A stretch of DNA of 45,022 nucleotides, taken from an uncultured Verrucomicrobiales bacterium. Its GTDB lineage: Bacteria > Verrucomicrobiota > Verrucomicrobiia > Limisphaerales > JAYPXF01. The position numbers and the translations under genes are program-made. Shown in pieces: positions 6,007-39,068 of the stretch (the stretch's first letter is position 1; each line of letters opens with the position of its first letter). Below the pieces are notes generated by a model, which was not told the DNA's origin, made no database searches, and worked only from the letters and a program-made list of their open reading frames with translations. The DNA lies in the NCBI GenBank assembly GCA_937893495.1, contig CALBIE010000514.1:1-45022 (forward strand). Direction: 5' to 3'.

Positions 6007-7515
6007 ATGCCGAAGCGGACCGACATTCATTCAGTGCTGATCATCGGAGCGGGGCCCATTGTGATTGGTCAGGCGTGCGAGTTTGATTACTCGGGCACCC
6101 AGGCGTGCAAGGCGTTGCGCGAGGAGGGCTACCGCGTCGTGCTGGTCAACTCCAATCCGGCCACTATCATGACCGATCCGGAATTCGCGGATCGCACCTA
6201 CATCGAGCCGGTGACACCCGAAGTCGTCGAGAAAATTATCGTGCGTGAACTCGCCGAAATGAAGCGCACCGGTGCCGAGGGCAAACTCGTCATCCTCCCC
6301 ACACTCGGTGGCCAGACCGCGCTCAATACGGCGATGAAGCTGCACGAAAATGGTGTACTCGAGAAATATTCCATTGAGCTGATCGGTGCCAGCCCGGATG
6401 CGATTGAGAAAGGGGAAGATCGTCAGATTTTCAAAGATCTGATGATTAGCATTGGGCTCGACATGCCCATCAGCGGCACGGCCCATACGATGTCTGAATC
6501 ATGGGATGTCGCGACGATGATCGGTCGATTTCCTGTAATTATCCGACCGGCCTACACACTGGGAGGCACCGGCGGCGGCATTGCGTACAACAAGGAGGAA
6601 TTCGAGGAAATGGCGAAGCGCGGCATCGACCTTTCGCCGGTCAACGAAATCCTCATCGAGGAATCACTGCTCGGTTGGAAGGAATTCGAAATGGAGGTCA
6701 TGCGTGATCGGATGGACAACTGCGTGATTATCTGCTCGATTGAAAACTTTGACCCGATGGGCGTGCATACGGGCGACTCCATCACCGTGGCACCGGCGCA
6801 GACGTTGACGGACAAGGAATACCAGATCATGCGCAACGCGAGCTTTGCCGTGATTCGCGCGGTTGGCGTCGAAACCGGTGGTTCCAACATCCAATTTGCG
6901 GTCAATCCCGACAATGGCCGACTGGTCGTCATCGAGATGAATCCGCGTGTCAGTCGCAGTTCGGCACTGGCATCGAAAGCAACCGGGTTCCCCATTGCGA
7001 AGATCGCCGCGAAGCTCGCAGTCGGTTACACGCTGGACGAAATTCCGAACGACATCACGCGCGAGACACCGGCAAGCTTTGAACCGACGATTGATTACGT
7101 CGTGACCAAGGTGCCGCGCTTTGCGTTTGAGAAATTTCCGCAGGCCGATCCGACATTGAACACGCAGATGAAGTCTGTCGGCGAAGCCATGGCGATTGGA
7201 CGGACTTTCAAGGAAAGCCTGCAAAAGGCGTTACGCTCGTTGGAGATTGGTCGTTCCGGATTGGGCGGCGACGGCAAGCCGTGGCGGATTGGTGAGAATG
7301 TGTATGGCGACCGCGACATCCTGCCGCGCGATGTCATTATCCGAAAACTGACGGTGCCCAATGACGAGCGCGTCTTCTTTGTTCGCCACGCATTGCGCGC
7401 CGGAATGTCCATCGATGAGATCCACGATCTGACCAGGATCGACATCTGGTTCCTCGCGCAGATCAAGGAAATCGTCGATTGCGAAGAGGAACTGGCCGCT
7501 GTTGCTTCGGCTTGA
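6007..7515 (+). CDS. carB: Carbamoyl-phosphate synthase large chain, N-terminal half
   Basis: The protein makes the carboxyphosphate half-reaction domain of carbamoyl-phosphate synthetase, used for pyrimidines and arginine. It opens with [20 protein letters not shown], followed by the ATP-grasp features [42 protein letters not shown] and [20 protein letters not shown]. It ends cleanly at 502 residues, within what is the oligomerisation domain of the usual protein of about 1,070 residues. The carbamoyl-phosphate synthetic half and the MGS-like allosteric domain are absent. The next gene starts within 13 bp and is unrelated. Split carB genes are known (for example in Aquifex and Methanocaldococcus), so a second gene elsewhere is expected. 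Confidence 0.9.
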
Positions 7516-10866: not shown

Positions 10867-12327
10867 ATGAAAACAAAAACTATGTTCAAGAAACTGAAGT
10901 CATTCGTCCTGTTATTGCCGGCTGTGGCAATGGTCATGGCGGGCGGCTCTGCAACAGCTCAAGTAGGCTTTGTTGCGGCATCGACGACGGATTACAGCGG
11001 TGGTGTCGTTCGTATCTCAAAGACCGCGCCAACCTTGGTGGCGCTGGGCGAGGAATACGCCAATACCATTACCATCACGGCGGTGGACGACGCCGGCGAC
11101 GTCGCGGTTTCGGATGTCGTTCCCGGTGGTGCTACCTATGTGAGCAGCACACCACCCGCGAAAAAGGACGACGACAAGCTGACCTGGATGTTCGCTACGA
11201 TGAATCGCGGCGAAACGAAAACGATTACCATCAAGCTCAAAGCAGCGAAGGAAGGGAGCTACAAGAGTTGTGCGACCGTGCACGCGCTGCCTAAAGCGTG
11301 CGTGGTGACGGTGATTGGCAAGCCGGGGCTGAAGATCGTCAAGACGGGACCGACCACGGCCGTCATTCGAGAGAACATCAGTTACACGATTCAAGTGAGC
11401 AACCCGGGCAACATGGCGGCGCGCGGCGTGGTGGTAACCGACAACATCCCCGCCGGACTGTCCCACAGCACCGGGCAGAAAACGTTGACGTGGAACATTG
11501 GCGACCTGGCACCTAAAGAAAGCCGAACCATCCCGGTGGTGCTGCAAGGCGTCTCGATGGGCAAGCACTGCAACAAAGCGGTGGCCACTTCAAGCAATGC
11601 GGGCAAAGCGGAGGCCGAAGCCTGCACGACGATTCTCGTCCCTGGATTGGTCGTCACCAAGACCGGGCCGAAGCTGCAGTTCCTGGGCAAACTGGCCACC
11701 TACTCAATCGGGGTGACGAACAGCGGTGATACGACCTTGAACAACGTTGTGGTGACCGATCGCGCACCGGCAGCTACCACCATTCAATCCGCTCGCGGCG
11801 CGACGGTGACGGGCAACATTGCGGTCTGGCAAGTGGCCAGCCTCAAGCCGAAAGAAGGCAAAAGCTTCAACGTGGTGTTGACCACCATGATTCCGGGCAC
11901 GCACCCGAACAACGTGAGCGCAACGACTGCCGAGGGATTGACCGGCAGCGCGGTGGCGCCCACCAAGTGGGAAGGTATTTCAGCGCTGTTAATCACGATG
12001 GGAGATGATCCGGACCCGATCAAAGTCGGCGGCTCGACGACCTACACCATCAAGGTGACCAACCAGGGCACTGCGGATGACGCAGCCGTCAAGCTGATGG
12101 CCACCTTCGACGAGGAGATCACCCCGACGGGAGCAAGCAATGGCGGAGTCGTTTCGGGCAAGACCGTGACCTTCCCGGCGTATCCGACATTGGCACCCAA
12201 GCAGTCGTTCACCTACACAATCACGGCCAAGGGCGTGAAAGCGGGCGACCATCGCCTGAAGGTGACGCGGACCTCAAGAGACATTCCCAAGCCGACGACG
12301 GTGGAAGAATCGACCCGGGTTTACTAA
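10867..12327 (+). CDS. OmcB-like outer-membrane protein with DUF11 repeats (secreted copy)
   Basis: The 486-residue protein has a Sec signal peptide (about 1-32, ending SATAQ) and four successive DUF11/immunoglobulin-like repeats. It aligns over its whole length, from memory, with chlamydial OmcB, the large cysteine-rich outer-membrane complex protein. Matching landmarks are GATYVSSTPP, GLSHSTGQKTLTWNIGDL, KVTNQGTADDAAVKLM and the final (T/E)ESTRVY, which in OmcB is TENTHIY. OmcB has about two dozen cysteines; this mature protein has four. Its C-terminal 340 residues are identical in DNA to the next gene. Of three in-frame ATGs the one at 10867 is used, because upstream sequence is not signal-like. 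Confidence 0.88.
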   Translation: MKTKTMFKKLKSFVLLLPAVAMVMAGGSATAQVGFVAASTTDYSGGVVRISKTAPTLVALGEEYANTITITAVDDAGDVAVSDVVPGGATYVSSTPPAKKDDDKLTWMFATMNRGETKTITIKLKAAKEGSYKSCATVHALPKACVVTVIGKPGLKIVKTGPTTAVIRENISYTIQVSNPGNMAARGVVVTDNIPAGLSHSTGQKTLTWNIGDLAPKESRTIPVVLQGVSMGKHCNKAVATSSNAGKAEAEACTTILVPGLVVTKTGPKLQFLGKLATYSIGVTNSGDTTLNNVVVTDRAPAATTIQSARGATVTGNIAVWQVASLKPKEGKSFNVVLTTMIPGTHPNNVSATTAEGLTGSAVAPTKWEGISALLITMGDDPDPIKVGGSTTYTIKVTNQGTADDAAVKLMATFDEEITPTGASNGGVVSGKTVTFPAYPTLAPKQSFTYTITAKGVKAGDHRLKVTRTSRDIPKPTTVEESTRVY

Positions 12328-12365
12328 CCCGCGTCCAGGTTGAAATTACACGGCCGGCAGTCTTC
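11302..12365 (+). repeat. Direct repeat, copy 1 (1,064 bp identical)
   Basis: This tract is identical base for base, as far as I can read, to 13105-14168 (offset 1,803). It covers the last two thirds of the OmcB-like gene, its stop codon and the first stem of its terminator. After one mismatch in the terminator loop, identity resumes for 22 bases. Upstream of 11302 the two genes differ at many synonymous and replacement sites. Confidence 0.95.
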
Positions 12366-12382
12366 CGACTGCCGGCCTTTTT
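12352..12382 (+). terminator. Intrinsic terminator of first OmcB-like gene
   Basis: A perfect 11-bp stem (GGCCGGCAGTC and GACTGCCGGCC) closes a TTCC loop and is followed by five T residues. It begins 25 bp after the stop codon. The same element follows the second copy. Confidence 0.93.
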
Positions 12383-12510
12383 CTTGCCCGGAAGGCAGCC
12401 TATTCCAATCGTGACCCGGGCCGTGATCTAAAATAGTTGTTCACCATCGAGGTCGCACGCTTGACCGTATTCAGTCTGACAGACAGAATGGGGGAAATTA
12501 ACGCTTACTG

Positions 12511-14130
12511 ATGATAAACAAATACTTCAATCTGCTCGCGCTGGCGGCGACCGTAATTACCCTGACCAGCGGATGTGAGGTGGTGAAAAACCGCCAGGTA
12601 AAAGAGAGGACCGACGGCTATCAGCCGGGAATCGTCCTGACACCACAGGGGTACGATACTTGGGGTCGCCGCTGGGGAACTGCCCCGGTTGCCACGACGG
12701 TGGTTGCCAAGGCGGAGCCTAAAAAGCCGGAACCGGCGCCAGCCCCTCCCGTCAAGACTGTTACCCTTCCGACTCCGGCCACAGCCTCGGCTGATTCCAG
12801 TGGTGGAGTGGTTCGTATCTCCAAGGAGGCACCGGCACTGGTGGCCATTGATGAGGAATACACGACGACGATTACTCTCTACGCCGTTGATGCGGCATCC
12901 AGTATTGAAGTTGCGGATGTCATTCCCTCAGGGGCCACATATGTAAGCAGTAGTCCTCCGGCAACGCAGGATGGCAACAACCTCGCGTGGAAATTCCCTG
13001 CCATGGCAAAGGGCGAGACCAAGACGATTAAGGTGAAACTCAAGGCAGCAAAGGAAGGCAGCTACAAGAGCTGTGCGACCGTGCATGCTCTACCGCAAGC
13101 ATGTGTGGTGACGGTGATTGGCAAGCCGGGGCTGAAGATCGTCAAGACGGGACCGACCACGGCCGTCATTCGAGAGAACATCAGTTACACGATTCAAGTG
13201 AGCAACCCGGGCAACATGGCGGCGCGCGGCGTGGTGGTAACCGACAACATCCCCGCCGGACTGTCCCACAGCACCGGGCAGAAAACGTTGACGTGGAACA
13301 TTGGCGACCTGGCACCTAAAGAAAGCCGAACCATCCCGGTGGTGCTGCAAGGCGTCTCGATGGGCAAGCACTGCAACAAAGCGGTGGCCACTTCAAGCAA
13401 TGCGGGCAAAGCGGAGGCCGAAGCCTGCACGACGATTCTCGTCCCTGGATTGGTCGTCACCAAGACCGGGCCGAAGCTGCAGTTCCTGGGCAAACTGGCC
13501 ACCTACTCAATCGGGGTGACGAACAGCGGTGATACGACCTTGAACAACGTTGTGGTGACCGATCGCGCACCGGCAGCTACCACCATTCAATCCGCTCGCG
13601 GCGCGACGGTGACGGGCAACATTGCGGTCTGGCAAGTGGCCAGCCTCAAGCCGAAAGAAGGCAAAAGCTTCAACGTGGTGTTGACCACCATGATTCCGGG
13701 CACGCACCCGAACAACGTGAGCGCAACGACTGCCGAGGGATTGACCGGCAGCGCGGTGGCGCCCACCAAGTGGGAAGGTATTTCAGCGCTGTTAATCACG
13801 ATGGGAGATGATCCGGACCCGATCAAAGTCGGCGGCTCGACGACCTACACCATCAAGGTGACCAACCAGGGCACTGCGGATGACGCAGCCGTCAAGCTGA
13901 TGGCCACCTTCGACGAGGAGATCACCCCGACGGGAGCAAGCAATGGCGGAGTCGTTTCGGGCAAGACCGTGACCTTCCCGGCGTATCCGACATTGGCACC
14001 CAAGCAGTCGTTCACCTACACAATCACGGCCAAGGGCGTGAAAGCGGGCGACCATCGCCTGAAGGTGACGCGGACCTCAAGAGACATTCCCAAGCCGACG
14101 ACGGTGGAAGAATCGACCCGGGTTTACTAA
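12511..14130 (+). CDS. OmcB-like DUF11-repeat lipoprotein (second copy)
   Basis: The 539-residue paralogue begins with a lipoprotein signal (TVITLTSGC lipobox, Cys at about 22). A linker of about 70 residues rich in Lys, Pro and Ala then precedes the same four DUF11 repeats as the first copy. From about residue 198 to the end it is identical to the neighbour, while the first repeat is only about 70% identical by hand alignment. The mature form has the lipidated Cys plus the same four Cys. The Pro-rich spacer could let the repeats extend from the membrane, as in a lipid-tethered partner of the secreted copy. It has its own 183-bp upstream region and is followed by its own terminator, so it is probably a separate transcription unit. 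Confidence 0.88.
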   Translation: MINKYFNLLALAATVITLTSGCEVVKNRQVKERTDGYQPGIVLTPQGYDTWGRRWGTAPVATTVVAKAEPKKPEPAPAPPVKTVTLPTPATASADSSGGVVRISKEAPALVAIDEEYTTTITLYAVDAASSIEVADVIPSGATYVSSSPPATQDGNNLAWKFPAMAKGETKTIKVKLKAAKEGSYKSCATVHALPQACVVTVIGKPGLKIVKTGPTTAVIRENISYTIQVSNPGNMAARGVVVTDNIPAGLSHSTGQKTLTWNIGDLAPKESRTIPVVLQGVSMGKHCNKAVATSSNAGKAEAEACTTILVPGLVVTKTGPKLQFLGKLATYSIGVTNSGDTTLNNVVVTDRAPAATTIQSARGATVTGNIAVWQVASLKPKEGKSFNVVLTTMIPGTHPNNVSATTAEGLTGSAVAPTKWEGISALLITMGDDPDPIKVGGSTTYTIKVTNQGTADDAAVKLMATFDEEITPTGASNGGVVSGKTVTFPAYPTLAPKQSFTYTITAKGVKAGDHRLKVTRTSRDIPKPTTVEESTRVY

Positions 14131-14168
14131 CCCGCGTCCAGGTTGAAATTACACGGCCGGCAGTCTTC
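13105..14168 (+). repeat. Direct repeat, copy 2 (1,064 bp identical)
   Basis: This is the partner of 11302-12365. The left boundary is sharp: the preceding base differs, and the 60 bases before it carry several synonymous differences. The right boundary lies in the terminator loop (TTCC in copy 1, TTCT in copy 2), with similarity fading about 22 bases later. Confidence 0.95.
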
Positions 14169-14185
14169 TGACTGCCGGCCTTTTT
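14155..14185 (+). terminator. Intrinsic terminator of second OmcB-like gene
   Basis: The same 11-bp GC-rich stem as after the first copy, with loop TTCT and a five-T tail, lies 25 bp after the stop codon. The opposing dehydratase gene ends 34 bp further on. Confidence 0.93.
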
Positions 14186-14218
14186 CTTGCCTGGAAAACG
14201 TGCAAGTTCCGCGACCAA

Positions 14219-18606: not shown

Positions 18607-19116
18607 ATGAAGACGGTCAGGGCAGTCCCCAAATACGGGATTGGATTCGCCCGGATTATTGTTCGGCTCTTTGCCTGCGTGTTGCTTTGGCTGATTGGAG
18701 TAGTCGGTTGCCGCACCATCCCACCGTCGCCCACCATCGATCTGCGCGAACCGGGCTGGACCACCCAATTGGGTGAGGCGACGTGGAAACGCGATGAGGC
18801 AGCTGAAATTCTGGCGGTGGAAATCCTGCTGGCGCGGCGCGGCACGAATCTAACCTTTCTGCAGGTATCAAAAGGGGGGCTGCCGCTTTTCGAAGTCACT
18901 CTTGCGAACGGACTGTGGAACATTCGCTCCAGCGATGGACAAAAATCCTACGGTGGACAGGGCAATCCGCCGGTCCAGGCCGGACCGGGCCAACTCGCTC
19001 AGGTGCTCGCGGGTCTGCCACTTACCAGAGGTTGGGAGGGTGTGCTGGCCGGTGAATCGATTCGCCTGAGTTGCCCGCGCACAGGTGAAGAATGGGAAGT
19101 GTTTATGACGCCATGA
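18607..19116 (+). CDS. Cluster lipoprotein of unknown function
   Basis: A protein of about 169 residues has a positively charged n-region, a hydrophobic segment (IIVRLFACVLLWLIGVVGC) and a lipobox Cys at about residue 35. The body is a small beta-rich domain (LPLFEVTLANGLWNIRSSDG) that I do not recognise. In proteobacterial aryl polyene clusters a DUF3261 lipoprotein occupies the slot next to the MMPL exporter. Position and size suggest an equivalent, but similarity is not evident by eye. Its TGA overlaps the exporter ATG (ATGA). An alternative ATG at 18568 would lengthen the n-region by 13 residues. Confidence 0.65.
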   Translation: MKTVRAVPKYGIGFARIIVRLFACVLLWLIGVVGCRTIPPSPTIDLREPGWTTQLGEATWKRDEAAEILAVEILLARRGTNLTFLQVSKGGLPLFEVTLANGLWNIRSSDGQKSYGGQGNPPVQAGPGQLAQVLAGLPLTRGWEGVLAGESIRLSCPRTGEEWEVFMTP

Positions 19117-22100
19117 TTCGTCGCGCTTTTCTCGCCATTGCCCTGTTGGCTTTATTGGTTTTCGGTTGGTCACGAGTTCGCTTCGATGCGGATCCCCTCA
19201 ATCTGCTGCCAGGCGACGTGCCGGCCGTGCGGGATCTGAAGTGGCAGCAACGCCATTTTGCCGACGCGGACGAAACACTCATCACCCTTCATTCGGCGAA
19301 CGCCAACATCGTTGCTTCCGCGGCAGAGTCATTGGCGGCAGAGTTCAATCAGAGAACCAATCTCGTCGCCGATGCCCAATGGCGGTCCGGTCTCGACGAA
19401 AATCCACGGGCCGTCGCTGAATTGCTCGCGTGGCTCTGGTTGAATGGATCGCCCTCCGCGTTCGCGGATTTGACCAACCGTCTGCAACCCGCGGCGTTGC
19501 GGGAACGACTGGTGTCCGTTCGTGAAGAGCTGGCCACCACCTTTTCTCCACTGGAGATTGCGCGCCTGAGCCGAGATCCGCTGGGACTGACGCGAATCCC
19601 GTTGCCGTCCGGAATCGACAAGCCCGATGCGCCGGACGCGTTTCACTCGCGCGATGGGAAGTTTCGGGTAATCCGGGTCAGGCCGCGCCGGCCGCTCGGA
19701 GATTACCGCGATTGTGCCCGCTGGATGGATGAAGTGAGAGGCGTGATGACCACCTGGAGTAATGCACAAACCAGCGGGAAACTGGTGGAGCTTGGGATTA
19801 CCGGCCGGCCGGCGTTCGTTGCCGAGATGGCGTTGGGTATGGAAAGGGATATGGCCCGTGCCACGCCCTGTACAGCGCTGCTGGTCGCGGTTTGCTTTTG
19901 GTTCGCGCACCGCCGCTGGCGACCAATGCTGTGGTTGGCCGTTTTGCTGGCGATCATCATTGCGGCAACGCTGGCTGTGGGTGGAATTATTTTCGGTACC
20001 CTGAACGCCATCAGCCTGGGCTTTGCCGCTATCTTGTTGGGTGTAACCGCCGACTACGGATTGGTGCTCTATCAGCAATATGTTTTCACTCGGGGCGATG
20101 CGAGTCTGGCTCGCGCCGCCGTGGCACCGGGAATTATCTGGTCGGCCATCACCACTGCGGGAGCGTTCGGGTCACTCGTTTTTGGCGGTTTGCCCGGTCT
20201 GGCGGAATTGGGCGTGCTGGTGAGTGCGGGCGTTCTTCTGGGTGCGATCGTTATACTGAAATTCTTTCTGCCACACCTCTCGGCAAGCCAGTTCAACGAG
20301 GCGAAGCGCGATGAACATTCCTTCGTGCACTCAGATAAGCGGCAATCCATCGTGGCTGTGATCGGGGTGGTTGCGTCCCTCTTGATACTCTTCACCAAAG
20401 GATTGCCGACGTTGCGGGTGGACGCCGATGCGTTTCAGCCCGTCGGCAGTGAGGCGCACGCGGCCATGCTCGACATCAATTCGCACTTGAGCAATGCGGA
20501 GAGCGGAATGCTGTTGAGCATCAGTGGGGCCGATGTAACATCGGTCGCCCGTTCGCTGGAAAAATTGCGTCCGGTGCTGGCGACGCTCGAACAGGAGCGA
20601 AAGGTGAAACATTTCCTGCTGCCTGATTCGATCTGGCCGAGTTCGGAAAACCAACTGCGCAATCGACCCATCGCCGGAGTCCTGGCCGATCGTCTCGACG
20701 ATATCAAGCAAGTCGCGCGTGAATATGGGTTCCGTCCGAATTCACTCGAATTGACGACGGACATCATGGAATCGTGGCGCGAGGCGGCAGCCGCGAATAC
20801 GAATGCGTTGTGGGAACCCAGGCATCCCGAAGTCCAAAAACTGCTTGCACAGGCCGGTACCACTTCTGATGGCGACGCGCGCGCCGTTGGATGGATTCAC
20901 CCCGCAATATCGGGAACTGCGTTTGCCGGAGAATTGGAAAAACGCGCGGTCGATGCCGGATTGAAAAACCAGGTTTCCGTCACGAGCTGGCAATTGGTGG
21001 GCGACACCGTTTGGTCCATCGTCGAGTCCAGTCAGGAACGAATTCTTGGCGTGATGGCAATGCTGGTTCTGGCATCGCTCTGGATGGCATTCCGCAACGT
21101 GCGTGAAGTCGCATTATGTATTGGTGGAATGGCGGCGGGCCTGCTCGGTTTGCTGGCGGTGATGAGACTGGCGGATTGGCACTGGAACCTTCTCAACCTT
21201 GCTGCTCTCCCGCTTCTTCTGGGCCTCAGTGTGGATTACGGAATCCATACATTGCATGCGCTGCGACGGCGAGAGGCCGGCGATCGACACGCTCCGCGGA
21301 ACACGGGAAAGGCGCTGCTGTTGTGCGCGGCCACTTCGGCGGGAGCGTTCGGTTCGCTGGCGATCACGAATAACCCCGGCCTCGCCAGTCTTGGTCGAGT
21401 CTGCGCGGTCGGAGTGGCTTGTGGTTGGCTGGGAACGGTGCTCGTGACTCCTGCCTTGTGGCGACTCTGGGCCGCGAAACCAATTTTTGTCCGTGATCCA
21501 AACCGCCCGTCTCGCGCCTACGGAGCAACCGGCTGGCGGGTTGGCCTGAGCATTGTGCGAATGATTCCACGCAAGCTCGCCCTCGCGATCGGTGGCACCC
21601 TGGGATGGTGCTATGGAGCGCTACATTCAACCCGCCGCCGGATCGTGTCTGCAAACCTGAAGCCAATTGATTCCATCTCCTCCAAAGCTTTGCCGCGAAA
21701 GTCGTCTCAGGTATTCCGCAATTTTGGGAGAAAGCTGGTGGACCTGATGCGCTTCGAAGCCGGTCGGCCGGTAATGGAGTTGTTCGATTTTCACAGCGAT
21801 TGGAGCAAAATCGAAGAGATCCGAACGTCAGGTGGCGGCATCCTGTTCGTGACGATTCACCTGGGCAACTGGGAACTTGGCGGCGCGGTACTGGCGGCCA
21901 AGGGCTTGCGACCGGCCGTGCTTTCCCATCCTGAACCAGACCCGCGATTGACGGAAATTCGAAAAGCGCATCGTGCGCAACTGGGTATTGATACGATTGT
22001 GATCGGTGATGACCCGTTTGCCTTCGTGGAAGTGGTGAAACGATTGAATGACGGCGGTGCGGTGGCTTTGCTTCTGGACCGGCCAGCGGTGGCGAAGGGC

Positions 22101-22400
22101 GTCGAATGTGAATTATTTGGCAAGCCGTTCATGGCTTCCATCGGCCCGGCGGAGCTCGCCCGAGCCACCGGGTGCGCCATCGTGCCAGTCGTGATTCCGG
22201 CGGAAGCCGATGGCTATCACGCGTTGGTGTTGGACCCGATTGCCTATAAAAGACCAAACCTTCGCGAGCGTGAGGCTCGGCAGCAACTGACCCGGCAAAT
22301 CCTGCGTGCCTTTGAACCTGTCCTCCGCCAGTATCCAGACCAATGGTATCACTTTGTTCCCATCTGGCTCACTCCCGAAGATGGCTCGTCCTCACGCTGA
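19113..22400 (+). CDS. MMPL exporter fused to LpxL-type acyltransferase
   Basis: The 1,095-residue protein joins two normally separate cluster proteins. Residues 1 to about 800 are an RND/MMPL transporter: an N-terminal membrane helix, a periplasmic loop, a block of helices with LGFAAILLGVTADYGLVLY, then a second loop and a second block with GLSVDYGIHTLHALRRRE. From about 810 an LpxL/HtrB-like acyltransferase follows, with its own membrane segment, the H-x4-E dyad in HLGNWE (His about 916), LLLDRP, and YPDQWYHFVPIWL near the end. The fusion suggests that acylation and export of the product are coupled at the inner membrane. Start 19113 is fixed by the ATGA overlap. It overlaps the LolA-like gene by 58 bp. 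Confidence 0.88.
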   Translation: MIRRAFLAIALLALLVFGWSRVRFDADPLNLLPGDVPAVRDLKWQQRHFADADETLITLHSANANIVASAAESLAAEFNQRTNLVADAQWRSGLDENPRAVAELLAWLWLNGSPSAFADLTNRLQPAALRERLVSVREELATTFSPLEIARLSRDPLGLTRIPLPSGIDKPDAPDAFHSRDGKFRVIRVRPRRPLGDYRDCARWMDEVRGVMTTWSNAQTSGKLVELGITGRPAFVAEMALGMERDMARATPCTALLVAVCFWFAHRRWRPMLWLAVLLAIIIAATLAVGGIIFGTLNAISLGFAAILLGVTADYGLVLYQQYVFTRGDASLARAAVAPGIIWSAITTAGAFGSLVFGGLPGLAELGVLVSAGVLLGAIVILKFFLPHLSASQFNEAKRDEHSFVHSDKRQSIVAVIGVVASLLILFTKGLPTLRVDADAFQPVGSEAHAAMLDINSHLSNAESGMLLSISGADVTSVARSLEKLRPVLATLEQERKVKHFLLPDSIWPSSENQLRNRPIAGVLADRLDDIKQVAREYGFRPNSLELTTDIMESWREAAAANTNALWEPRHPEVQKLLAQAGTTSDGDARAVGWIHPAISGTAFAGELEKRAVDAGLKNQVSVTSWQLVGDTVWSIVESSQERILGVMAMLVLASLWMAFRNVREVALCIGGMAAGLLGLLAVMRLADWHWNLLNLAALPLLLGLSVDYGIHTLHALRRREAGDRHAPRNTGKALLLCAATSAGAFGSLAITNNPGLASLGRVCAVGVACGWLGTVLVTPALWRLWAAKPIFVRDPNRPSRAYGATGWRVGLSIVRMIPRKLALAIGGTLGWCYGALHSTRRRIVSANLKPIDSISSKALPRKSSQVFRNFGRKLVDLMRFEAGRPVMELFDFHSDWSKIEEIRTSGGGILFVTIHLGNWELGGAVLAAKGLRPAVLSHPEPDPRLTEIRKAHRAQLGIDTIVIGDDPFAFVEVVKRLNDGGAVALLLDRPAVAKGVECELFGKPFMASIGPAELARATGCAIVPVVIPAEADGYHALVLDPIAYKRPNLREREARQQLTRQILRAFEPVLRQYPDQWYHFVPIWLTPEDGSSSR

Positions 22401-35354: not shown

Positions 35355-38300
35355 ATGGATTCACAAGTTTCATTCAAGGTCGCCTTGTTGCTCGCGCGGC
35401 GGGCGGAATTGACCGTGCGCGGCGGATGCCTGAGCGAGCCGGTTGACCTCAACACGTTGAAGAGCTTCGAGGTGGAGCTTGACGGTGCGTTGGAGCGACT
35501 GCGACAGGCCGGCACGATTCCTGACCATCCCCTGGCCGACTTCCTTTCCCAATGCGCGACGGTAATCGGTTGGGAGAGAAAATTGGCTGCCGAAGAAGCT
35601 TTTTTTGCCGAGGTCATCGCCAGTGGGTTCGCCGAATTCGATGAACTGATTGCCCAGGGTTTGCCGGAAGCGGAGTGGACCCGTTTCCGGGATGGGGTGG
35701 CAAATCTGGATTCGGACTTTGCCAATGCGCGAACCCTTTCGCAGAAATCGGTGCCCCGCGAATTGTGGCCCATTGTGTCCGGTTCAAGTCGCGAGGAAGC
35801 AACCGCGAATGTGATTGCCCTGATACGGCACGCCAGCGAGGGCGGCTTGTTGAACCCGGCAAGAGGTTGGGCGGGACCGCAGCTTGACATGGAGTCTGAA
35901 ACGTTTGGGATGTCTCCGGATTGGACGGACCACTTTGATCCGGGCGACGACGCGCGGAGTCGAATCGCCTCACGCCCCGCGTTTGACGCCACTGAGCTCG
36001 CCCGACTGCGTGAACAGATTCAGGTCGCTGAGGAGCGGAAAGACATCTGGCAGAAGTACTTTCCCCGCATTCAGGCCACGACGTTGCCAATCCGCACGAA
36101 ACAGGCCTACGAATTGATTGTCAAAGACCCGGGAGAAGTAGTTGGCCAATTGACCGAGTGCTGGCCGGAAGTGGATCGGCGTTTGTCGGCGCGGGTGATG
36201 ACGATGTTTGAGAGTGGCGATCTGGGACTGGCCGAAGGTGTGGCATTACTCGCGACGGACAAGGACGCGCTCAAGGCAGAGACAGCGGCCGAGATCCGCG
36301 CGCGAATCCTGGCGCTTCCCGGCAAGCCGCTGTTTTCCGCGGCCGACGTCGAATGGATTTGCGACACGCCCGGAAAAGTCAAAACGGTTTATACCGCCAG
36401 GATGGAAGAGAGTTGCACTGATTACAACTGGAAGCATGGCTTTTCCGTTTCCGCCGAAGTTGAAGCGGTCTTCGCGCAGGGCACGAATGTCGCGGAGGGT
36501 CTTGCCGCCATGCTTGAGGGCAAGTCGAAGAAGCATTTACTTGGTGAGGAGGAAGTTGAGAAAGTATTCAACCAGTTGCGGATGATTCCCGAGATATCGG
36601 AGGATTTTCACAGTATCGATTGTTCCCGACTGGAAAACTCCACCAACCTTCCCGATGGCTGGTCTGGCGAATACTGGCGCTCCGCGTCGTTCGAGGTGGG
36701 AGATTGGGTCGTTGGCAACCCGATGCAGGCGGTTCGTTTGTTGAGCAGTGAGTTGCCGCAAATCGTGGAGGAATATACAGGTCGCCGACAATTGTCCGAG
36801 TGGCGCGACACCGCGCAACCATTGCTGGATGATGAAAGTCTTACGATTTCAGGCAAGGCGATGCTGTTGCCGGTCATGCTGGGATTGTCCAATGACATTC
36901 CGTTTCTTCCGGAAAAACCAGTTGAAACGAAAGACGCAGACAAGGGTGAACAGAAACTTTCTTCGCTCAAGGAAGAGGTGGAACGACCATTCCGTAAGGC
37001 TGAGGTGAACGAATTGCTGGCGTCTGGTTTTGCGGAAAAGCTGGCCAGGTATGGCGGGCAGGATTGGCTACAGGATACGGTGAATTCCCGGGCGGAGACA
37101 CGAAACCGCGTGGCCCGCTTCAGTATGAAAGCCGTTGTGGCAATCGGCGCGGCGGTGGTGCTCCTTCTGGCCGTCGCTTATTTCGTCAGTAGCGCGCGAA
37201 ACCGGGCGGCGATGTCCGAACAGGAAAGGGAAGCCGCCCTGAAGCGAATGGTGCTGGACGTGGAGGTGGATTTTTCGGCTGCGGCCACAAGTCTTGAGAA
37301 AGGCAGTTATCGGATCGAACTCGATGGCAATCCTCTCGTGGTGGAAGTGGAAAACGGTTCAGACAACAATCTGATCTTCAAGTCGGATTTCTCGAAAACG
37401 GAACCGGGCCAACACGTTCTGATACTCGACCATCCACGTTTTAAAGTATTTCGAAAAGATGTCGAAATTGCTTTCGGAGAAGGAATAAAGCTGGGTCGCG
37501 TGAAGTTGGAGCCCGCTTCGGCGATGCTGGATTTGCAGTCCGATCCATCGGGCGCGTCCGTTTCAATAAACGGCTCCGCCATCGGTCAGACGCCGTTGAA
37601 AGTTGCCGCGTTGCCGGTGGGCACCAACACGATTGAATTGAGTTCGGTAGAATTCGGCGCGTTCACGACCAATGCCGCCGCCGTTCGCGATCAGCCGCTT
37701 TCTGTTTTGCATCGCTTCGCCAGCGGAATCGCGCGGGTTGAGACGACGCCGGCTGGATTCTACGGAGGCATTGAGCGAGTGACGGAATCGAATTCGGTCA
37801 TTCGCTTCCAGCCGGAGTGGAACAAGACACCGCTTGAGCAGAAGTTGAGTCCGGGCGAATACATGTTTGCGCTGGTTCATCCGACAATGGGCGGACTGGA
37901 GACCACACGATTCGAGATAACCGATCTGGCGACGAACCAGTTGGTCCATCAATTTCCGGTGGGCAAACCAGCGTTCAATGGGCTGCCAGCGACGCCCGGG
38001 TATTGGCGCGGCGTGCAATCATTGAACAAGTGGCTCGATTGGGATGCCAGTTGGCAGTTCTCGACGAAGAATCGCATGACTTTGTTCCGCTTGTGGAAAC
38101 CGGGATTTTTGCCGCAGGTGTATCCGTTGGAATATCGCGCAGACTCCGGATCCTTCAGTTCGCTAAAAAAATCCGCGATGCAGTCGGGCGGAACGATCGA
38201 ATGTTGGGGCGTGGACAGTAAGGGACAATGCACGGTTCCGGACGAGTTCAAGAACCGAAAGTTCATCGACATTGCCGCAGGGGCCAACCACACGGTCGGG

Positions 38301-39068
38301 TTGACTGAAGACCTGAAAGTCGTGGCATGGGGTGACAATTCACTGGGGCAGTGCAACGTTCCCGCCGATCTGGGTCCGTGCATGATGGTTGCGGCGGGCG
38401 ACAATCATACGGTCATCCTCCGGGCTGATGGCAAGGTCATGGCCTGGGGTGACAATCGAGCGGGGCAATCCGCCATCCCCGATGAGATTGGTTATTGCGT
38501 CGCCATTACCGCCTCCGGTAATCGCAGCGGCGCGCTGAATCAAGATGGCAGCATTGAGGGATGGGGCTATGGGAAATTCACGATTGCGCCGCGAACCCAG
38601 TGGCGGCCATTTATCGATTTGTCATTCGGCCCTTACTACATCAGCGCACTCGATGACCAGGGGCAGCCGGCCATTTACATTCAGACGAAGGAAGGCGCTG
38701 GATCACCACCCAGTGAAGTTGCCGAGGCCGCTGCGGGTGGGCCGCTGATCGCCACTGCTGCCGGCAAGACCTTTACGCTTTGGGTTAATGCCGAGGGCAA
38801 AATGAACGGCATCGGTCGCGATCCGCTGGCGAAACGACTACCGGACTCGGCCGCACCTTTCCTTTCGGTGGCCACGGGCGATTCACGTCATGCTGCGGTA
38901 TGCGTGAACGGAAACATTGTGATCTGGGGCACCAAGGCGGGCGTCAGTGAGCGCTACGGTTTTGAGCGGCAGATCGAGGAATCCAGCCGACTCGGTTTCT
39001 GGCGGATGAAGGGGAGTTTCTCCAAGGTCGTTTGCGGCCAATTCCACTACGTTGCGATTAAGAGGTAG
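35355..39068 (+). CDS. Large membrane protein with PEGA domain and RCC1-like repeats
   Basis: The 1,237-residue protein has three parts. Residues 1 to about 590 form a large, presumably cytoplasmic, mostly helical region that I cannot assign. A single membrane helix (AVVAIGAAVVLLLAVAYFV) lies at about 593-613. The outer part contains a PEGA domain near 722-760 (SDPSGASVSINGSAIGQTPL) and RCC1-like beta-propeller repeats from about 943 on (WGVDSKGQCTVP, WGDNSLGQCNVP, WGDNRAGQSAIP). PEGA domains are usually attached to bacterial serine/threonine kinases, but no kinase motifs are visible. It may be a scaffold or sensor with a surface propeller. Cellular role unknown. Confidence 0.8.
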   Translation: MDSQVSFKVALLLARRAELTVRGGCLSEPVDLNTLKSFEVELDGALERLRQAGTIPDHPLADFLSQCATVIGWERKLAAEEAFFAEVIASGFAEFDELIAQGLPEAEWTRFRDGVANLDSDFANARTLSQKSVPRELWPIVSGSSREEATANVIALIRHASEGGLLNPARGWAGPQLDMESETFGMSPDWTDHFDPGDDARSRIASRPAFDATELARLREQIQVAEERKDIWQKYFPRIQATTLPIRTKQAYELIVKDPGEVVGQLTECWPEVDRRLSARVMTMFESGDLGLAEGVALLATDKDALKAETAAEIRARILALPGKPLFSAADVEWICDTPGKVKTVYTARMEESCTDYNWKHGFSVSAEVEAVFAQGTNVAEGLAAMLEGKSKKHLLGEEEVEKVFNQLRMIPEISEDFHSIDCSRLENSTNLPDGWSGEYWRSASFEVGDWVVGNPMQAVRLLSSELPQIVEEYTGRRQLSEWRDTAQPLLDDESLTISGKAMLLPVMLGLSNDIPFLPEKPVETKDADKGEQKLSSLKEEVERPFRKAEVNELLASGFAEKLARYGGQDWLQDTVNSRAETRNRVARFSMKAVVAIGAAVVLLLAVAYFVSSARNRAAMSEQEREAALKRMVLDVEVDFSAAATSLEKGSYRIELDGNPLVVEVENGSDNNLIFKSDFSKTEPGQHVLILDHPRFKVFRKDVEIAFGEGIKLGRVKLEPASAMLDLQSDPSGASVSINGSAIGQTPLKVAALPVGTNTIELSSVEFGAFTTNAAAVRDQPLSVLHRFASGIARVETTPAGFYGGIERVTESNSVIRFQPEWNKTPLEQKLSPGEYMFALVHPTMGGLETTRFEITDLATNQLVHQFPVGKPAFNGLPATPGYWRGVQSLNKWLDWDASWQFSTKNRMTLFRLWKPGFLPQVYPLEYRADSGSFSSLKKSAMQSGGTIECWGVDSKGQCTVPDEFKNRKFIDIAAGANHTVGLTEDLKVVAWGDNSLGQCNVPADLGPCMMVAAGDNHTVILRADGKVMAWGDNRAGQSAIPDEIGYCVAITASGNRSGALNQDGSIEGWGYGKFTIAPRTQWRPFIDLSFGPYYISALDDQGQPAIYIQTKEGAGSPPSEVAEAAAGGPLIATAAGKTFTLWVNAEGKMNGIGRDPLAKRLPDSAAPFLSVATGDSRHAAVCVNGNIVIWGTKAGVSERYGFERQIEESSRLGFWRMKGSFSKVVCGQFHYVAIKR

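Follow-up and report, generated by a model that had tools for sequence, protein, structure and literature searches.

Two tandem OmcB-like genes of an uncultured Verrucomicrobiales bacterium share an identical 3′ half behind a diverged first domain

Pairs of paralogous genes that are alike at the 3′ end and diverged at the 5′ end have been described in Helicobacter pylori. In homA and homB, the 3′ segment (segment 3) is homogenized within a strain and the 5′ segment diverges, a pattern ascribed to intragenomic gene conversion (PMC2795765). A like pattern is attributed to babA and babB by Pride and Blaser (2002), as cited in the same paper (PMC2795765). Copies of tuf and of other concertedly evolving prokaryotic paralogues are more alike within a genome than to other homologues, silent sites included, and short-term concerted evolution in bacteria is frequent in outer-membrane protein genes (PMC6053082).

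The locus described here lies on contig CALBIE010000514.1 of an uncultured Verrucomicrobiales bacterium, within a stretch of 45,022 nt that begins with the first base of the contig (the window). Its two tandem genes resemble the H. pylori pairs in having a homogenized 3′ part and a diverged 5′ part. They differ in that the H. pylori pattern is seen across many strains and the present one in a single genome, in that silent sites before the boundary are much more diverged here, and in that the proteins are unrelated. With the tuf-type cases they share a within-genome similarity that extends to silent sites, but those cases are long-lasting and recur across species, whereas the present one involves part of a gene and is absent from tandem pairs elsewhere in the order. 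The locus is a new instance of an event type known from another gene family, not a new kind of event. Domain-limited conversion of envelope paralogues is familiar from Helicobacter and other pathogens; the present locus would be a clear example from an environmental verrucomicrobial lineage, with its boundary in the linker between two domains.

Both genes encode OmcB-like proteins (Table 1). Chlamydial OmcB is a 60-kDa envelope protein that is rich in cysteine. The two proteins share with it, and with its relatives in other PVC bacteria, the DUF11 repeat architecture and a Chlam_OMP6 match, which covers domain 1. They do not share its high cysteine content, as each contains about five cysteines (five in the gene 2 frame). 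Each protein is composed of a secretion signal, recognized by inspection only, and four tandem Ig-like/DUF11 domains, with the DUF11 profile matching in four stretches. Gene 1, whose start codon is probably the ATG at 10867, begins with a type-I-like signal peptide (MKTKTMFKKLKSFVLLLPAVAMVMAGGSATAQ). In gene 2, a lipoprotein-like signal (LTSGC) precedes a Pro/Ala-rich linker. The predicted structure of the gene 2 product contains four β-domains with a mean pLDDT of 82.6, residues 1–93 being of low confidence. Domain 1 is predicted to span residues 92–195 and the further β-domains to extend from residue 209 to the end. In this model, residue 199, at which the identical tract starts, is in the linker between domains 1 and 2.

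Table 1. Features of the tandem gene pair (positions in the window)
Feature	Position	Strand	Details
Gene 1, OmcB-like protein, 486 aa	10867–12327	+	DUF11 E = 5.7e-44 (Pfam); Chlam_OMP6 above cut-off
Gene 2, OmcB-like protein, 539 aa	12511–14130	+	DUF11 E = 1.8e-44 (Pfam); TIGR01451 (NCBIfam)
Diverged homologous domain 1, gene 1, 109 codons	10975–11301	+	69% aa identity to 12778–13104
Diverged homologous domain 1, gene 2	12778–13104	+	Partner of 10975–11301
Identical tract, gene 1 copy	11302–12365	+	Ig-like domains 2–4, stop codon, first half of terminator
Identical tract, gene 2 copy	13105–14168	+	Exact comparison
Intrinsic terminator, gene 1	12351–12388	+	11-bp stem, loop UUCC, T run, end of homology
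Intrinsic terminator, gene 2	14154–14191	+	Loop UUCU

The two genes form a mosaic of a differing part (anchor, linker, and domain 1) and a common part (domains 2–4, the stop codon, and the terminator). Exact alignment of the two copies reveals a tract of 1,064 bp without mismatch at an offset of 1,803, bounded by mismatches at 11301 and 12366. It bears out the sequence-only reading, which had described a sharp start of identity and an end in the terminator loop. The downstream mismatch (12366/14169) is the fourth base of that loop. Past it, identity continues for 22 nt (12367–12388) over the second arm of the stem and the T run, and homology then ends. From the tract start, the whole related stretch measures 1,087 bp and contains this one mismatch. 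The 3′ edge of the tract coincides with the end of homology and is therefore uninformative on conversion. The 5′ flanks and the intergenic DNA of the two genes are unrelated. When the 106 mismatches of the homologous region were shuffled 2,000 times, identical runs reached 192 bp at most. The tract is present in the whole assembly in these two copies only. No other internal exact repeat of at least 47 bp occurs in the roughly 360 kb of the genome that were examined, and 41 other contigs of the same MAG (315 kb) contain no internal exact repeat longer than 46 bp. The terminator was also considered as a dispersed repeat; this was rejected, its stem occurring in the assembly at these two sites only.

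The 5′ edge of the tract is marked by a step in silent divergence. For domain 1, identity between the two genes is 69% at the protein level, close to the value of about 70% estimated beforehand, and 68% at the DNA level. The four-fold sites of this domain match at 14 of 40 positions, and its dS is about 1.2 (YN00) or 2.1 (NG86), so that silent sites are near saturation. From 11302 onward, all 206 of 206 four-fold sites match (Fisher p = 2.5e-25 against domain 1). Just 5′ of the boundary, the protein is nearly unchanged, yet third positions differ. Silent sites in the tract are thus far more alike than those in the flanking homologous domain, as in interlocus gene conversion. The step means that either the tract is younger than the gene pair or one front half was swapped in.

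The former is preferred because it is simpler. The tract likely stems from a recent event in which the 3′ half passed between tandem paralogues that already existed, by gene conversion or an equivalent exchange, with gene 1 the likelier donor. In this history, an OmcB-like envelope gene would have been duplicated in tandem at an earlier time, and the copies would then have diverged in their 5′ halves, which comprise the signal peptide or lipoprotein anchor, the linker, and the first Ig-like domain. More recently, one copy would have overwritten the 3′ half of the other, with domains 2–4, the stop codon, and the terminator. The route would be intrachromosomal homologous recombination, either as conversion or as an exchange in two steps with an equivalent outcome, presumably through a RecA-type pathway. 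The sequence-only reading had favoured recombination or conversion over a recent tandem duplication. Its core, the homogenization of older paralogues, is well supported by the silent-site step, and the unrelated 5′ flanks and intergenic DNA argue against a fresh duplication of the whole unit. Base composition and branch length weakly favour gene 1 as donor: the GC3 of the tract (0.78) is nearer to that of domain 1 in gene 1 (0.69) than to that in gene 2 (0.56), and the domain-1 tree gives gene 1 the shorter branch. Two dispersed copies in the same genome (C656 and C101) were rejected as donors, being only 39–43% identical.

Relatives were collected by an order-wide search of 320 genomes and by a scan of public genome contigs with an alignment as query; the same scan with gene 2 alone gave no match. 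Seven other tandem pairs of the OmcB-like family were found in two separate lineages, and all are diverged in both halves. Three pairs in genus g28 (L119, L120, and L124) are 59–64% identical in protein over domains 2–4, and four pairs in rumen MAGs (L158, L159, L161, and L162) are 40–41% identical. No other long identical tract was found among the family loci searched. In the domain-1 tree, gene 1, gene 2, and a copy from the same family (G002:C290) form one clade (support 0.97) apart from the g28 pairs, so the duplication here is separate from the one in g28. Within the clade, a pairing of the two genes with each other is not supported (0.03), and the duplication could therefore predate the split from G002. 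In the 3′ tree, the distance between gene 1 and gene 2 is 0. The sole orthologue candidate from the same family, G002:C290 (L038, 1–441), is cut by a contig end 135 nt beyond the point that corresponds to the start of the tract. Its missing 3′ half was looked for and not found. In another genome of the family, G001, the pair is absent at the syntenic place, and the flanking genes occur on two separate contigs, with 88% and 79% identity. As a separate observation, the rumen pairs are conserved tandem OmcB-like genes about 230 bp apart that are diverged over their full length. Five public MAG records (L121, L125, L124, L128, and L133) are titled Klebsiella pneumoniae or Akkermansia muciniphila; their OmcB-like genes are closest to those of verrucomicrobial MAGs, and the species titles look wrong.

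The same mosaic could arise in the reverse order, if the whole gene had recently been duplicated in tandem and the promoter, anchor, and domain 1 of one copy were then replaced, through recombination, from a diverged homologue of another strain. Such a swap would yield the same sharp step and would leave unrelated 5′ flanks like those observed. It adds one step with no donor in view, and the imported domain 1 would have to happen to be the nearest to its own partner (tree distance 0.41, compared with 0.75–0.96 for the next), which makes this history unlikely.

Assembly is the chief reservation about the preferred reading, although an origin of the pattern in assembly alone is similarly improbable. 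The real 3′ halves might differ by a few per cent and have been collapsed to a consensus written twice, or the copy number might be wrong. The source is a MAG of 900 contigs and 8 Mb, 88% complete and 6.7% contaminated, in which no 16S rRNA gene was detected. It was probably assembled from short reads. The numbering and lengths of its contigs look like length-ranked nodes sorted as text. A short-read assembler can traverse an arrangement A–repeat–B–repeat–C when it forms a simple loop, and would then write one consensus twice. With no other repeat of at least 47 bp inside the sampled contigs, the tract was probably resolved in this way. The early end of the nearest family relative, G002:C290, just past the corresponding boundary is consistent with a k-mer break at identical repeat copies and might reflect the same repeat in that genome, although it proves nothing. 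A search with the contig end, aimed at the overlap size of the assembler, gave no match. Against such an artefact, the unique 739-bp segment has the repeat on either side, which implies at least two copies. Collapse also presupposes copies that are nearly identical and cannot make copies with saturated silent sites identical. The real copies could differ slightly, but silent divergence would still drop from saturation to near zero at the boundary, a step that collapse cannot create.

A transfer between existing paralogues could also be one round of a continuing process. The sequence-only reading held that recombination keeps the repeat domains homogeneous, a claim that goes beyond one genome in one recent state; the other pairs of the family diverge over their full length. 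Selected, domain-limited concerted evolution, in which ongoing recombination keeps the three-domain stalk of both proteins identical, is doubtful. Under it, soluble and lipid-anchored OmcB-like proteins would perhaps co-assemble, with the anchors and the first domain free to diverge. Recurrent homogenization is seen neither in the g28 nor in the rumen-clade tandem pairs; among the tandem pairs compared, it is observed once, in this lineage. A 1,064-bp direct repeat is predicted to be unstable, as its two copies could recombine with each other, an event that would remove 1,803 bp and reduce the pair to one gene. Both copies persist despite this, which suggests that both anchored forms are needed.

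Unequal recombination had been named alongside conversion as the mechanism. One unequal crossover on its own would give either a lone hybrid gene or a set of three, and a second event would be required, such as expansion to three genes followed by loss of one. The direct repeat is a good substrate for crossing-over, and the product would be the same as that of conversion. With two events required and no third copy or remnant found in the assembly, a change in copy number of this kind is distinctly unlikely. The weakest alternative, a young duplication whose front end alone diverged fast under positive selection, would account for a differing anchor and domain 1 beside an otherwise identical gene, but has virtually no chance of being correct, since selection on protein cannot bring silent sites near saturation in 327 bp beside 341 silent-identical codons.

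Three other genes in the window were noted. The gene at 19092–22400 encodes a 1,102-aa protein that combines an MMPL exporter domain with a lipid A acyltransferase-like domain, and may belong to a lipid or aryl-polyene-type cluster. The 1,237-aa protein encoded at 35355–39068 contains a PEGA domain and RCC1-type repeats. The 502-aa protein encoded at 6007–7515 matches part only of the large chain of carbamoyl-phosphate synthase; a relative is present as short pieces on G000:C68, one of them with an internal TAA stop.
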